A DNA stretch of 46,697 bases from Actinomycetota bacterium (lineage in GTDB: Bacteria; Actinomycetota; Actinomycetes; Nanopelagicales; Nanopelagicaceae). A program made the position numbers and the translations under genes. Below the pieces are notes generated by a model. That model ran no database searches. It was given only the letters and a program-made list of their open reading frames with translations, and was not told where the DNA came from. The stretch spans positions 1 through 46,697 of the forward strand of contig WLHB01000007.1 of NCBI GenBank assembly GCA_009702965.1, in the 5' to 3' direction. Every line of letters starts with the position of its first letter. Position 1 is the stretch's first letter. Positions 6,875 through 11,085 of this stretch are shown here, piece after piece.

Positions 6875-7717
6875 TTACTTCAACTTCAGATCAACAGATA
6901 GCGGCAAGTGATCACTTACTCCAGTTGCAACGGTAGGAAGTTGCGTAGATTCCATGGCAGATCGAGTAAGAATGTAATCAAATTGAATTTTTGCTCCCCA
7001 ACTTGGATATGTTGCTTGGGTTGCTAGCGATCTCCACTTCGAGGCAACGACTGGCAAATTCTTTGGCAGGTTTAAATCCCCGACAATGATTGCCGTTGTA
7101 TTCATTTCTCTCTCTAGTTCAATTGCCCAACCCTTGATTGCGCGAAGTTGTTTGAGGTTATATCCCGGAACAAAGGACAGGTGTGTATTGATCACGGTAA
7201 TTCCATTTACCAAGGTTGCCGCAAGTGCTACACGAGGTTCATCACGAATATAGATTGGCCGGAGTTTTCCTGGATTTGCTTCATCACCTGGAACCAGAAG
7301 TGGCATACCAATGGGTGCGTTACCAAGATCTAGTCGATGCCACTTAGCTACTTCAATCTTTGAGGCGATGCCAATTCCATATCCACCTTGATTTGCTCCT
7401 TCATCCGTGCCTGAGCTATCGCTCTCAGTGATGATTTTTTGATCGTTTGCGTTAAGTTTTCGCCACTTTTCACCTGGTGTTCCAATAATGCACGGAGCAA
7501 ATGCAAAGTGCGGTGCACCAATACTCTGAGCAATCTTTGAAATTTGATTGACATCTGCAGTGCGTGCAAGTCGGTAATCACATTCTTGTACGGCAATCAG
7601 ATCGGGTGCTGGGTCGGTCGCAATTTTCTCGGCGGCCTGGGCTAGGGCAGCGCTATCGGCTACGGGGGTCGGCGGGATCGCCATTCCATGCAGGATATTC
7701 CACGAGGTAATGCGCAT
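6875..7717 (-). CDS. Endonuclease/exonuclease/phosphatase (EEP) family protein
   Basis: About 280 aa of the EEP (DNase I-like) fold. It starts MRITSWNILHG, the usual first strand with the metal-ligand Asn. It continues with IAVQECDYR (catalytic Glu), INTHLSF, VGDLNLP (Asp/Asn pair) and ends with GVSDHLPL (SDH motif), so all catalytic signatures are intact. No signal peptide is visible. The substrate cannot be told; the family contains nucleases, phosphodiesterases and lipid phosphatases. Its position among repair genes suggests nucleic acid, but that is inference. The start at 7717 is favoured over 7759 because a -10-like TAGCCT lies 7 nt upstream on the minus strand, as for leaderless genes nearby, and the longer form would overlap nudC. 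Confidence 0.8.
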   Translation of the reverse strand: MRITSWNILHGMAIPPTPVADSAALAQAAEKIATDPAPDLIAVQECDYRLARTADVNQISKIAQSIGAPHFAFAPCIIGTPGEKWRKLNANDQKIITESDSSGTDEGANQGGYGIGIASKIEVAKWHRLDLGNAPIGMPLLVPGDEANPGKLRPIYIRDEPRVALAATLVNGITVINTHLSFVPGYNLKQLRAIKGWAIELEREMNTTAIIVGDLNLPKNLPVVASKWRSLATQATYPSWGAKIQFDYILTRSAMESTQLPTVATGVSDHLPLSVDLKLK

Positions 7718-7724
7718 AGCGAGC

Positions 7725-7737
7725 AGGCTAGTACCGT
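7725..7737. promoter_or_regulatory. Back-to-back -10 boxes between the EEP gene and nudC
   Basis: In the 28-bp divergent gap, TAGCCT (minus strand, 7730-7725) lies 7 nt before the EEP ATG and TACCGT (plus, 7732-7737) lies 8 nt before the nudC ATG. This spacing predicts leaderless mRNAs from both. No -35 boxes were assigned. Confidence 0.45.
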
Positions 7738-7745
7738 TGCCCCTT

Positions 7746-8663
7746 ATGAGCGCGATCAATAGCCAACCATCACGGATCGACCGCGCCGGCCACCTGCGTG
7801 AAAACCAGGCAACTCTTGATCAGCTCTGGATGCGAGCCAAAATCCTTCAGATCGCACAGGGTCGGATACGAGCAGATGGATATCTAGGTGCAGATCAGGT
7901 CGCATCTCTGATTGCAGATGGTGAATTTAAGGAAGGCTCACGTTACTTTCTCGGTTTAGATGCAGTCTCTGGCGATCCATATTTTGCATGGGATACACGG
8001 TGGACAACTGCACGCACAGATGAAGAGATGAAGATTGGATTTACCACTCTTCGCGAAGTAGGCGCTGCTCTTTCAGATATAGATGTCGAGCTTGCATTGC
8101 ATGCTGTTGCATTAAGTAACTGGCACCAATCGCATCCTTGTTGTGCCAGGTGCGGAGCGCAGACTCGCGTTGATTTAGGCGGGGCAGTTCGTGTCTGCGA
8201 TGCAGATAAGAGCCAACATCATCCACGTACAGATAGCGCTGTCATCGTATTGGTGCGAGATAAAGATGATCGTATTCTTCTTGGACACCAACCAGTCTGG
8301 CCAGAAGGGCGATTCTCATGCTTTGCCGGATTTTTAGAACCTGGTGAAACATTTGAACAATGTGTTGCTCGTGAAGTCTTTGAAGAAGCTGGTGTTGCAG
8401 TTCGTGAGATTTCATATCTTGGTTCACAACCATGGCCATTCCCAGCATCGATCATGATTTCATTTGATGCAGTGACAGATTTTCCTGAAACTGCCCGCCC
8501 TGATGGCGCTGAGATCACTGAGGTGAAATGGTTTACTCGCGATCAACTTCGCGCAGAAGCAAAGGCAGGAACGCTATTGCTTCCACCTTCGATTTCAGTT
8601 GCTCGCAAAATGATTGAACGTTGGTTGGGTGAGACGGCCGTCGGTGGCGAAACATGGAGATAG
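7746..8663 (+). CDS. nudC: NAD(+)/NADH diphosphatase, Nudix family
   Basis: A 305-aa NudC-type Nudix hydrolase, which cleaves NAD(H) and NAD-capped RNA to NMN(H) and AMP. It has an N-terminal domain, a zinc-ribbon region HPCCARCGA...VCDADKSQHHPRTD, the Nudix box GFLEPGETFEQCVAREVFEEAG and the NudC-specific SQPWPFPAS motif after the box. In the zinc region the fourth Cys of the E. coli pattern is Asp (CDAD); from memory other actinobacterial NudC proteins show the same. The start at 7746 gives a -10-like TACCGT 8 nt upstream. The stop overlaps the uvrD2 start by 10 bp. The nudC-uvrD2 pairing also occurs in mycobacteria. Confidence 0.92.
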   Translation: MSAINSQPSRIDRAGHLRENQATLDQLWMRAKILQIAQGRIRADGYLGADQVASLIADGEFKEGSRYFLGLDAVSGDPYFAWDTRWTTARTDEEMKIGFTTLREVGAALSDIDVELALHAVALSNWHQSHPCCARCGAQTRVDLGGAVRVCDADKSQHHPRTDSAVIVLVRDKDDRILLGHQPVWPEGRFSCFAGFLEPGETFEQCVAREVFEEAGVAVREISYLGSQPWPFPASIMISFDAVTDFPETARPDGAEITEVKWFTRDQLRAEAKAGTLLLPPSISVARKMIERWLGETAVGGETWR

Positions 8664-10357
8664 TTCCCAAACTTGGGGGAGAACCAAGCCTACGCGGTGA
8701 CGAGATCCTCGCAGCACTCGATGATGATCAACGAGAAGTGGCTTTAGCAACACGTGGTCCTGTCTGTGTAATTGCAGGTGCTGGTACTGGAAAAACTCGC
8801 GCAATCACTCATCGCATCGCCTACGCCGCAGCGATTGGAACAATGGATCCCAGCAAAGTGTTGGCACTTACCTTTACTGCGCGCGCTGCAGGTGAGATGC
8901 GTACCCGTCTTCGTTCATTGGGCGTTCCCACTGTTGCTGCGCGCACAGTGCACTCGGCAGCGCTCAAGCAGCTGATCTATTTTTGGCCGACAGTCTTTGG
9001 CGGGCGTACCCCTGATTTAATGAATAGCAAGACTCCATTTCTTACTGAAGCGATCAACCGCGCTAATTTGTCGGGGGAGGTTCGCAGTACCTCTCGAGAA
9101 ACAATGAGAGATATTGCAACTGAGATTGAGTGGGCAAAGGTTTCACAGGTTGCACCGATTGATTACTTAGATCAGGTATCAGAGCGTTTAACCAAACCAC
9201 GCATTAAACCTGAACACATTGCTCAGATCTATGTGGCTTATGAAAGTCTCAAAAAGCAAGAAGTTGCGATTGATTTCGAAGATGTCTTACTTCTCACCTC
9301 GGCGATGCTTGAAGAAGAGCGAGCAGTGCGTGAGCGTGTACAGGATCAATACCGGTACTTCACAGTTGATGAGTATCAGGACATCTCACCAATTCAGCAG
9401 CGACTTATTAACGCATGGCTTGGAAGTCGAAAAGATATCTGCGTTGTAGGAGATCCGGCACAGACGATTTATTCATTCGCTGGGGCGACCCCAGTTTTCT
9501 TAAATACCTTCACACAACGTTTCCCAGAGGCGCAGGTAATCCGCCTCAGCACTGGATACAGATCAACACCAGAGATTACATTTGCTGCAAATGCGCTGCT
9601 GCGAACATCGTCAATGGGGCAAGAGCTCACCGCAAGTAATGACCATGGACATCGGCCCAGCGTTGATGGATTTAAAGATGAGACAGCAGAGATCGCAGGA
9701 ATTATTTCATCGATCACCGCACTGCTCAGCGATGGAACTGCGCCACAAGAGATTGCAATCTTGGCTCGTACCAATAGCCAACTCAAAGGTATGGAACGTG
9801 CCATGAATAGCAAAGGCCTTCCATATCAAGTGCGCAGTACCGAAAGATTCTTTGAGCGCCAAGATGTAAGAGATTTCCTCAAGCAAGTACGCCAAGCATC
9901 TGTAATTCCAACAGAAGGCGCTACATGGCTCGATGAATTGCGCACGATTGCTCAGCCATATTTAACAGGTGAAAGTATTGATGGAATTGCAGCTCTGCTT
10001 CATTTAGGACGCGAGCTCGATGACGATGAAGGATTCTCACCAAAGACTCTGCGCGGATTCTTACGTGAAGTCGAAGATCGCGTCACACAGAACAATCCAC
10101 CCACAATGCCAGTAGTCACTCTTGCAACTCTTCATGCTGCAAAGGGTCTTGAGTGGGAGCGAGTATTTCTGATCGGTGCATCAGAGGGAATTTTGCCTTT
10201 AGAAACTGGTTCAACCGGAACAACAGATGCGGTTATTTCAGAAGAGCGACGTTTGTTCTATGTTGGCATGACCCGCGCAAAGGTTGATCTTCACATCTCA
10301 TACCGCGGCCAACCATCTCGCTTCTTACGCGAATCTGGGTTACTCGCCAGTTCATAG
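8654..10357 (+). CDS. uvrD2: UvrD2-like superfamily 1 DNA helicase, short form
   Basis: A 567-aa SF1A helicase. Walker A AGAGTGKTR is at residues 41-49, followed by LTFTARAAGEM, motif II VDEYQDISPIQQ, motif III VVGDPAQTIYSFAGA, motif IV LSTGYRSTPEI, motif V TLHAAKGLEWERVFL and motif VI RLFYVGMTRAK. It ends about 35 residues after motif VI, so the C-terminal tetracysteine and HRDC regions of mycobacterial UvrD2 (about 700 aa) are absent. It overlaps nudC by 10 bp and is probably co-transcribed with it. The role is ATP-dependent 3'-5' unwinding in repair; whether this short form replaces UvrD2 or PcrA cannot be decided here. Confidence 0.88.
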   Translation: MEIVPKLGGEPSLRGDEILAALDDDQREVALATRGPVCVIAGAGTGKTRAITHRIAYAAAIGTMDPSKVLALTFTARAAGEMRTRLRSLGVPTVAARTVHSAALKQLIYFWPTVFGGRTPDLMNSKTPFLTEAINRANLSGEVRSTSRETMRDIATEIEWAKVSQVAPIDYLDQVSERLTKPRIKPEHIAQIYVAYESLKKQEVAIDFEDVLLLTSAMLEEERAVRERVQDQYRYFTVDEYQDISPIQQRLINAWLGSRKDICVVGDPAQTIYSFAGATPVFLNTFTQRFPEAQVIRLSTGYRSTPEITFAANALLRTSSMGQELTASNDHGHRPSVDGFKDETAEIAGIISSITALLSDGTAPQEIAILARTNSQLKGMERAMNSKGLPYQVRSTERFFERQDVRDFLKQVRQASVIPTEGATWLDELRTIAQPYLTGESIDGIAALLHLGRELDDDEGFSPKTLRGFLREVEDRVTQNNPPTMPVVTLATLHAAKGLEWERVFLIGASEGILPLETGSTGTTDAVISEERRLFYVGMTRAKVDLHISYRGQPSRFLRESGLLASS

Positions 10358-10405
10358 GCGTATGCGAGGGGTTATTCGCGGCCGCTTGCGCAGGAATTAA
10401 TTCAT

Positions 10406-10435
10406 TTGCACCAAGTGATATCGGTGCTCTACCCT
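10406..10435 (+). promoter_or_regulatory. Candidate WhiB7-type promoter for the whiB7 leader
   Basis: -35 TTGCAC (10406-10411), 18-bp spacer, -10 TACCCT (10430-10435). An AT-rich stretch (GAATTAATTCATT, about 10393-10405) lies directly upstream of the -35, as in WhiB7-activated promoters where the AT-hook binds. The predicted start of transcription is at the ATG of the leader ORF (10443). Confidence 0.55.
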
Positions 10436-10442
10436 TAGCGCT

Positions 10443-10622
10443 ATGTCCGTACAGGGAGTATCAACACAGGTAGCAGTTGCTGCCGCGATCTCTCATGCCC
10501 ATTCACATCTAGCCACAGCTGCCGCTAACAAGCGAACATCTTGGCCACGCGCATCAAAGCCAGCGTTTTACGCAGCTTTTTATGCCACAGCGGATGAGGC
10601 AACCGGAGGGTCAATCGAGTAA
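10443..10622 (+). CDS. Putative 59-aa leader ORF upstream of whiB7
   Basis: A small ORF of 59 codons (MSVQGVSTQVAVAAA..., ending GGSIE) whose ATG sits 7 nt after a -10 hexamer, predicting leaderless translation. It is Ala/His/Ser-rich in its first half and resembles no family I know. Its last codons contain 10592-10600, which can pair with the 5' arm of the terminator hairpin that follows. By analogy with the mycobacterial whiB7 leader, its translation state could decide whether transcription reads into whiB7. It could instead be a non-coding part of the leader. Confidence 0.5.
   Translation: MSVQGVSTQVAVAAAISHAHSHLATAAANKRTSWPRASKPAFYAAFYATADEATGGSIE
10592..10600 (+). promoter_or_regulatory. 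Candidate antiterminator arm
   Basis: GGATGAGGC pairs with GCCTCAAATCC at 10644-10654 (GAGGC with GCCTC, GGAT with ATCC, AA bulge). That pairing would use up the 5' arm of the terminator hairpin. It lies inside the last codons of the leader ORF, so a ribosome finishing the ORF would mask it. Confidence 0.45.
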
Positions 10623-10641
10623 ATCGATATAACCCACACAA

Positions 10642-10682
10642 GGGCCTCAAATCCGAAAAGGATTTAGAGGTCCTTTTTCTTT
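10642..10682 (+). terminator. Rho-independent terminator / attenuator before whiB7
   Basis: Arm 10642-10654 (GGGCCTCAAATCC) pairs with 10660-10673 (GGATTTAGAGGTCC) over 13 bp with one bulged A and a GAAAA loop, followed by TTTTTCTTT. It lies 20 nt after the leader ORF stop and 67 nt before whiB7, so it would stop most transcripts unless the antiterminator forms. Confidence 0.75.
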
Positions 10683-10708
10683 ATCCAAAGAAAATATCCA
10701 AAGAAAGT
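10683..10708. repeat. 13-bp tandem duplication
   Basis: ATCCAAAGAAAAT (10683-10695) is followed directly by ATCCAAAGAAAGT (10696-10708), 12/13 identical, between the attenuator and whiB7. Confidence 0.75.
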
Positions 10709-10749
10709 AACCAGAGAAAGATCGAGAGAGAAGAAAGAGGGTGAGAGCG

Positions 10750-11085
10750 ATGACCGTTCTCTTCAGTGAACTGCAACTACCAGGCTGGGCAGAGACCGGC
10801 GACAAGATTGGCTTAAGCGATGTGACATTTACATATGACGATGCCAAAGCTTTTACCTTGCCATGTCACACAGCAGATCCCGAACTCTTCTTCGCCGATG
10901 ATGACGGCGCAACAGCGGCTGCCAAGGCGCTCTGTGGTGGATGTCCGATGCGTAATGCCTGCCTCGATGGCGCACTTTCGCGTCAAGAGCCATGCGGAGT
11001 ATGGGGTGGACAGTTAATTGAAGATGGCGTGATTATTGAACGTCGTCGTCGTGCGGGTCGTCCACCGAAGGTCTCTGCCGCCTAA
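10750..11085 (+). CDS. whiB7: WhiB7-family redox-sensing transcription factor
   Basis: A 111-aa Wbl protein. Four Fe-S Cys are at residues 39, 62, 65 and 71 (C...LCGGCPMRNAC), followed by GVWGG (83-87), which contacts the sigma factor. The C-terminal basic motif RAGRPPK (101-107) is the AT-hook that separates WhiB7 from other WhiB proteins. An extra Cys at 82 precedes GVWGG, where WhiB7 usually has Trp. WhiB7 activates intrinsic antibiotic-resistance genes and itself. AGAGG at 10736-10740 is 9 nt before ATG 10750; a GTG at 10741 is the alternative start. The neighbourhood (uvrD2, ABC1 protein) matches the mycobacterial whiB7 locus, supporting orthology. Confidence 0.85.
   Translation: MTVLFSELQLPGWAETGDKIGLSDVTFTYDDAKAFTLPCHTADPELFFADDDGATAAAKALCGGCPMRNACLDGALSRQEPCGVWGGQLIEDGVIIERRRRAGRPPKVSAA

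Follow-up and report, generated by a model that had tools for sequence, protein, structure and literature searches.

A probable ribosome-mediated transcription attenuator in front of whiB7 in a relative of Candidatus Planktophila

Among the regulators of intrinsic resistance in Actinobacteria WhiB7 has a major part, and the uORF attenuators of whiB7 and wblC were reportedly studied by Burian and Thompson in 2018 and by Lee in 2022. Small-genome freshwater actinobacteria are thought to have shed much of their regulation; in those described here the whole whiB7 device appears to have been kept. Passages of five papers describe the attenuation mechanism of whiB7/wblC in mycobacteria and Streptomyces (PMC4128351, PMC13236596, PMC11550727, PMC10727445, PMC13393426). 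In M. tuberculosis, according to an excerpt of a further study, linezolid lowered downstream transcription, with whiB7 as a notable exception (PMC10937400).

The segment 10393-10750 of the DNA analysed here (the window, 46,697 nucleotides) very probably controls whiB7 as a ribosome-mediated transcription attenuator like those described for whiB7/wblC. The mechanism itself is already known. For this lineage the attenuator is new in that no report was found: a literature search returned no paper joining Planktophila and whiB7, and among the matches listed for Nanopelagicales, attenuation and whiB none was on this subject by its title. Two additions to the known mechanism seem worth testing, namely a sensing zone rich in Ala/Ser/Thr and a conserved predicted hairpin around the whiB7 start codon.

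Promoter and uORF of the whiB7 locus

The host is a relative of Candidatus Planktophila, which accounted for 7 of the 70 related loci from named records; two of the 7 lie on complete chromosomes, those of P. versatilis and P. lacus. Its genome is represented by a 1.12-Mb assembly of 60 contigs that is 76% complete. A WhiB7 ortholog lies downstream of the leader, as in the whiB7/wblC attenuators (ATG at 10750); among solved structures its product matched WhiB7 best (7kif, 1e-21, compared with 6e-10 for the top WhiB protein other than WhiB7). Neighbouring genes encode a NUDIX/NADH-pyrophosphatase, a UvrD helicase, an Fpg-type glycosylase, a DUF2256 protein and an ABC1 kinase, and the order nudC-uvrD2-whiB7-ABC1 is presumably also that of mycobacteria. 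The features of the locus are listed in Table 1.

Table 1. Positions of the features of the whiB7 locus in the window
Feature	Position	Strand	Basis
nudC-like and uvrD2-like neighbours	7710..10357	+	neighbour annotation
AT-rich block (TAATT-N3-TTGC), putative WhiB7 autoregulatory site	10392..10405	+	read in sequence; relatives; pattern search
Promoter TTGCAC-18 nt-TACCCT	10406..10435	+	read in sequence; same spacer in genus loci
59-codon uORF	10443..10622	+	sequence reading; pN/pS 0.41 in frame
Predicted sensing zone, codons 2 to -14, 49% Ala/Ser/Thr	10446..10580	+	stepwise folding, composition
Antiterminator 5' element GGATGAGGC, inside uORF	10592..10600	+	complementarity, folds
Stop-codon hairpin ATCGA-GTAAA-TCGAT, apical part of antiterminator	10614..10628	+	folds of distinct leaders
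Intrinsic terminator hairpin and U tract	10640..10682	+	-21.7 kcal/mol, z -5.2
Predicted whiB7 start-codon hairpin GAGAGCG-ATGAC-CGTTCTC	10743..10761	+	151-nt fold; arm conservation
whiB7 coding sequence, 111 aa	10750..11085	+	Pfam Whib 4e-16; closest solved structure WhiB7

In a survey of the genus (assemblies of 0.6-1.8 Mb) whiB7 was matched in 105 of 135 genomes, with 108 matches in total, and the upstream DNA was taken for 100 loci. Three assemblies (G030, G113 and G116) had two whiB7 matches each on separate contigs and are perhaps strain mixtures. Two genomes of the family that are more than 90% complete (G142 and G147) had no whiB7 match at E 1e-15, which may reflect losses.

The promoter described in the initial annotation was read directly in the sequence, with the -35 element TTGCAC at 10406-10411, the -10 element TACCCT at 10430-10435, an 18-nt spacer, and the AT-rich AATTAATTCAT immediately 5' of the -35. 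A simple consensus scan of the window missed both promoter and terminator; the former departs from the E. coli type, and the stem of the latter is bulged. The window leader matched no Rfam family at the gathering threshold (two chance microRNA matches below it had E values of 1.2 and 2.5), so that it was not assigned to the T-box or riboswitch leaders and the case rests on comparison. The promoter pattern (TAATT-N3-TTGC, 18 nt, TACCCT, with some freedom in the -35 and -10) was matched in 79 of 96 genus loci; 8 of the 17 misses have less than 300 nt upstream. Relatives keep the AT-rich block and its spacing, and the 18-nt spacer fitted all 79 matched loci (17-19 nt were permitted and 18 was tried first). 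Part of a study on Streptomyces places WblC binding 3 nt upstream of the -35 (PMC7157823). An AT-rich site at the same distance was found here, and WhiB7 may bind this block and control its own promoter. Searched in 7 genomes, the strict pattern found whiB7 in all seven and just 5 stray sites, from which no WhiB7 regulon could be read; a relaxed pattern gave 57 sites compared with 69 in the control (12 genomes) and was thus not above the control.

The 59-codon ORF begins, as noted earlier, at the predicted transcription start. Its ATG (10443-10445) lies about 7-8 nt past the -10 box and is the sole ATG/GTG/TTG/CTG of that open frame, which ends with the stop codon at 10620-10622. Because the ATG is so close to the -10, there is no room for a 5' leader with a Shine-Dalgarno site, and the window uORF does not belong to the Shine-Dalgarno-led mycobacterial subtype. 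The initial annotation had regarded this leaderless layout as a twist on the known arrangement; the layout is real, but it is a lineage state found in only 6 of the 79 promoter-matched genus loci, namely the window with its two nearest relatives (L001, L004, L005) and a second clade (L068, L072, L077). In 72 of the remaining 73 loci the start lies farther downstream with a Shine-Dalgarno-like site (L060 is the exception). Across the family, an in-frame ATG 6-9 nt after the -10 was present in 15 of 48 promoter-matched loci, from five further genera, and by this reading of the sequences the leaderless start is a lineage state that recurs in the family. As the layout is scattered over clades and genera, leaderless initiation has apparently been gained and lost with the other features retained, and close relatives offer both leaderless and Shine-Dalgarno-led forms for comparison.

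The uORF is coding, as judged from a pN/pS of 0.41 in frame, where the two remaining frames gave 1.0 and 1.27 (375 related pairs, which are not independent). This conservation of the reading frame, one of the cross-genome checks proposed at the outset, argues for a translated uORF in the leader as in the whiB7/wblC attenuators. The layout, in which an ORF carrying an FYA-type motif stops just 5' of a T-rich hairpin, was found in 96 of 100 genus loci, and in the other four contig ends leave only 16, 28, 52 and 131 nt upstream. Since the FYA motif was used to find the uORFs, its presence is not independent evidence; a stricter peptide motif missed 11 of the 100 loci and a looser one 4. The length, at first thought to be long for an attenuator peptide, is ordinary, with 48-63 aa and a median of 52 in 86 genus loci. 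Mycobacterium sp. E740 has a Shine-Dalgarno-led uORF of 54 aa, 20 of them Ala, and a hairpin 26 nt past the stop.

The uORF and terminator were called automatically in 44 of 53 loci of the family; 7 of the 9 misses were inspected by eye, and all 7 had a GC-rich hairpin with a T run. In the class, a GGCC-type hairpin preceded whiB7 in 49 of 52 loci, compared with a mean of 1.7 and a maximum of 5 in 20 shuffles and with 2 of 51 in DNA farther upstream. The uORF was callable by its C-terminus in only 15 class loci.

The strongly conserved C-terminus AFYAxFYA of the genus and the purifying selection on the uORF would also be expected of a small protein with its own job, which the terminator merely insulates from whiB7. 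The conserved C-terminus, however, abuts and overlaps the antiterminator region, while the N-terminal part is variable and the peptide had no match in Pfam or NCBIfam, and such a protein is very unlikely. As the loci were selected by the presence of whiB7, the uORF survey covers whiB7 loci.

Terminator, antiterminator and timing of the switch

An intrinsic terminator lies between the uORF and whiB7, as in the whiB7/wblC attenuators. Its stem joins 10640-10654 to 10660-10675 by 15 pairs with one bulged A and is followed by TTTTTCTTT; the hairpin and U tract had been recognised before, but with a stem of 13 bp. None of 200 shuffles was as stable as the window terminator. The 96 genus loci with the layout reduce to 76 distinct leaders, and the median stability of their terminators was -21.3 kcal/mol. 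The spacer from the terminator to whiB7 (10683-10749) is strikingly A/G-rich, as it is in many relatives.

The complementarity reported between the last codons of the uORF and the terminator arm was confirmed: GGATGAGGC (10592-10600) can form 9 pairs, with a 2-nt bulge, with GCCTCAAATCC (10644-10654). In folds of the nascent RNA the uORF paired with no fewer than 6 nt of the terminator arm in all 76 distinct leaders. The antiterminator, folded from the last 45 nt of the uORF and the RNA that follows as far as the terminator loop, had a median of -31.1 kcal/mol compared with -19.4 kcal/mol for synonymous recodings (200 per leader), and in 55 of the 76 leaders at most 10 of the 200 recodings were equally stable. 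The window antiterminator is among the weaker ones and exceeds its own recodings only moderately (-22.3 kcal/mol, 23 of 200 recodings equally stable; 11 of the 76 leaders fared worse), and 1 of 200 dinucleotide shuffles was equally stable. The 5' arms of the terminators contain 42 unpaired bases in 41 leaders, and in the antiterminator 40 of these find a partner in the uORF; on the sequences compared this would be hard to explain without an antiterminator. A stem of at least 4 bp with the stop codon in its loop was present in 75 of the 76 distinct leaders, with pairs that had changed and still matched; singly this hairpin is weak, and on average 12% of shuffles reached an equal stem.

Relatives lacking both the complement and the ORF had been named in advance as evidence against an attenuator; the comparison found ORF and terminator in 96 loci and the complement in 76 leaders. 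Layout and pairing together support the attenuator first proposed from the window, and its parts, coding constraint and mutually exclusive pairings are conserved at the level of sequence. A search for co-varying arms had also been suggested. In the L068 clade the uORF and the terminator arm had changed together, with -14.3 kcal/mol for the clade's own pairing compared with -8.4 to -13.3 kcal/mol with the arms of other clades, but among the 10 arm groups the own arm gave the strongest pairing in only 2. Owing to misaligned arms, RNAalifold found no consensus pairs in a MAFFT alignment, and it was replaced by folds of single sequences and arm exchange.

The position at which a stalled ribosome would act was estimated by walking a ribosome along the uORF and folding the RNA made as far as the terminator loop in 83 leaders. 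With the P site at codon -15 or earlier, a median share of at least 0.70 of the arm bases was paired with the uORF; this share fell to 0.50 at codon -14 and to 0.36 at -13, and it was 0 at codon -9 and beyond. When no ribosome was present, 81 of the 83 leaders reached a share of 0.4. The folding predicts read-through when a lagging ribosome is still 5' of about codon -14. At equilibrium with the 3' arm included, the median probability of the terminator was at least 0.86 at every stall position, although single leaders fell below 0.3 at a few positions, and without a ribosome it was at least 0.5 in 79 of the 83 leaders. Switching at equilibrium was thus ruled out, as the terminator wins once the 3' arm is present, and the switch must therefore be kinetic, as in transcription attenuators. 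The uORF end and the terminator arm share the antiterminator as in the whiB7/wblC attenuators, with the terminator favoured at equilibrium.

In the mechanism proposed, RNA polymerase would start at about 10443 and ribosomes would translate the 59-codon uORF from the 5' end of the RNA. A ribosome keeping pace would cover the last 13 codons or so and hide GGATGAGGC, so that the terminator forms and stops transcription. Should a drug or starvation slow or arrest translation upstream, the last codons would pair with the 5' arm of the terminator before the 3' arm is made. This antiterminator would let the polymerase read through, and the WhiB7 produced would then boost its own promoter. By analogy with the known systems, whiB7 of the window would be induced by antibiotics.

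Composition of the uORF peptide and candidate inputs

The 69 distinct genus uORFs are rich in Ala (22.0%, compared with 10.1% in 31 window ORFs), Thr (12.6 and 6.2%) and Ser (11.2 and 8.2%) and poor in Leu (1.5 and 10.0%), Asp (1.0 and 5.5%) and Glu (2.2 and 6.1%). Within the sensing zone of about 45 codons, Ala, Ser and Thr made up 50.4% in the genus, compared with 35.2% in the last 13 codons and 24% in the remaining proteins of the window. The zone of the window itself reached 49%, a richness matched by 93 of 10,502 stretches taken from window proteins. The zone was richer in these residues than its neighbours, which were one or two proteins per locus, in all 10 other genera and all 11 class families with called uORFs. 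Glu and Leu were strongly depleted in the genus, family and class uORFs (Leu mildly in the class), and Asp in those of the genus and family.

The bias sits at codon position 2, where C amounted to 56% compared with 27% in uvrD2, the sole gene compared; at positions 1 and 3 it was not raised (18 and 24%, and 22 and 21%, for zone and uvrD2 respectively). A cause at the RNA level was rejected, as the C excess is limited to codon position 2. Some nucleotide-level bias remains, since UCN codons made up 92% of the Ser codons (462 of 500) compared with 72% in window ORFs (701 of 978).

A tentative interpretation is that the uORF is a broad drug sensor coded in the peptide, with the first 45 codons or so selected at the amino-acid level, half of them Ala/Ser/Thr and nearly free of Asp, Glu and Leu. 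Arrest anywhere in this zone would free the antiterminator. In the window lineage the sensor would be combined with leaderless initiation, and a second gate would follow downstream, the whiB7 start codon in a hairpin loop. The macrolide-type arrest motif is K/R-x-K/R. As a sensor element this motif was not supported, with 0 occurrences in the sensing zones of the 69 genus uORFs compared with 22.8 in shuffles; its absence speaks against a sensor for every drug class. It occurred 3 times compared with 14.0 in shuffles in 41 family uORFs and 14 times compared with 6.1 in 15 class uORFs, the sequences being related. Parts of two papers bear on the sensor. Phenicols and oxazolidinones arrest ribosomes at these residues; arrest by chloramphenicol and linezolid was strongest with a penultimate Ala and weaker with Ser or Thr (PMC8987054), and the E. 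coli uORF toiL was unresponsive to chloramphenicol, as its authors suggest, for want of Ala/Ser/Thr (PMC12121999). By analogy, such arrest might also act on the whiB7 uORF; a literature search for whiB7 with Ala codons had whiB7 in none of the matches listed. The same source on toiL states that drug-stalled ribosomes inside the whiB7 uORF have not yet been tested (PMC12121999). The Ala/Ser/Thr zone, from about codon 2 to -14, provides a falsifiable rule for the sensing of so many translation inhibitors.

The richness may alternatively reflect alanine sensing, or a featureless cheap peptide. With alanine sensing the attenuator would be the same and its main natural input a shortage of amino acids, chiefly alanine, in which low charged tRNA-Ala slows the Ala-rich codons. 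Ala occupies 16 of the 59 codons of the window uORF and is raised in the genus as well, and mycobacterial whiB7 answers alanine starvation (Poulton 2024, as cited in passages of PMC10727445, PMC13370626 and PMC13236596). However, Ser is raised too and Thr about 2-fold at the level of genus, family and class, no run of Ala codons in the window uORF exceeds 3, and whiB7 is not a biosynthetic gene. Alanine as the main input is possible but doubtful. With a regulator gene downstream and so short an Ala run, the leader does not fall among the trp-type attenuators of amino-acid biosynthesis.

The whiB7 start codon and comparison with described attenuators

The whiB7 start codon lies inside an inverted repeat, flanked by GAGRRC and GTTCTC, that could form a 7-bp hairpin. 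The GAGRRC arm was present in 97 of 100 genus loci and GTTCTC, which is codons 3-4 of whiB7, in all 100; in the rest of whiB7 GTT made up 102 of 531 Val codons and CTC 239 of 895 Leu codons. In the family, GTTCTC occurred in 33 of 34 loci with the full arm compared with 5 of 15 without it (49 of 53 loci scored, kinship uncorrected). The arms were mostly lost together in other genera. Random upstream shuffles reached the stem length 30% of the time. The median stability was -6.2 kcal/mol, with a median of 5 in 100 synonymous recodings equally stable (at most 5 in 33 of 63 leaders), and the hairpin was present in the 151-nt window fold while a 55-nt fold preferred a different pairing. The case for this hairpin leans on conservation. 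A shared DNA operator was considered, and the repeat showed no clear excess over the control elsewhere in 12 genomes. The predicted hairpin may form a translational layer on whiB7 in addition to the attenuator.

This hairpin would also suit a control of whiB7 that is Rho-dependent or purely translational, with the terminator hairpin incidental. A rut site is C-rich, however, while the C-richness of the zone is confined to codon position 2, and the strong intrinsic terminator and U tract are conserved with an arm that pairs alternatively with the uORF. Such control is highly improbable, and attenuation through the intrinsic terminator is the preferred reading.

Leaderless polycysteine attenuator uORFs were reportedly described in mycobacteria by Canestrari and are said to sense one amino acid through a run of Cys codons. 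The window shares with them a leaderless uORF as attenuator, but contains no run of Cys codons. It also resembles the E. coli topAI uORF toiL, described in part of PMC12121999, in that a single uORF senses several classes of ribosome drugs, as is proposed here. According to the same text, toiL controls translation and thereby Rho-dependent termination, whereas the window has an intrinsic terminator, and toiL is without Ala, Ser and Thr codons, in which the window uORF is rich (PMC12121999).

The closest likeness is to the whiB7/wblC attenuators, with WhiB7 downstream, an own promoter with an AT-rich block, a uORF and an intrinsic terminator after its stop, and, as a passage of PMC10727445 has it, an antiterminator formed from overlapping uORF and terminator sequences. 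The distance from the uORF stop to the terminator is 20 nt here compared with 26 nt in Mycobacterium sp. E740. The start is leaderless here, whereas the mycobacterial uORF has a Shine-Dalgarno site (E740, and an excerpt of PMC4128351). In contrast to the mycobacterial and Streptomyces systems the window has the AFYAxFYA C-terminus and low-GC arms, and its inverted repeat at the whiB7 start codon was not seen in the E740 locus.
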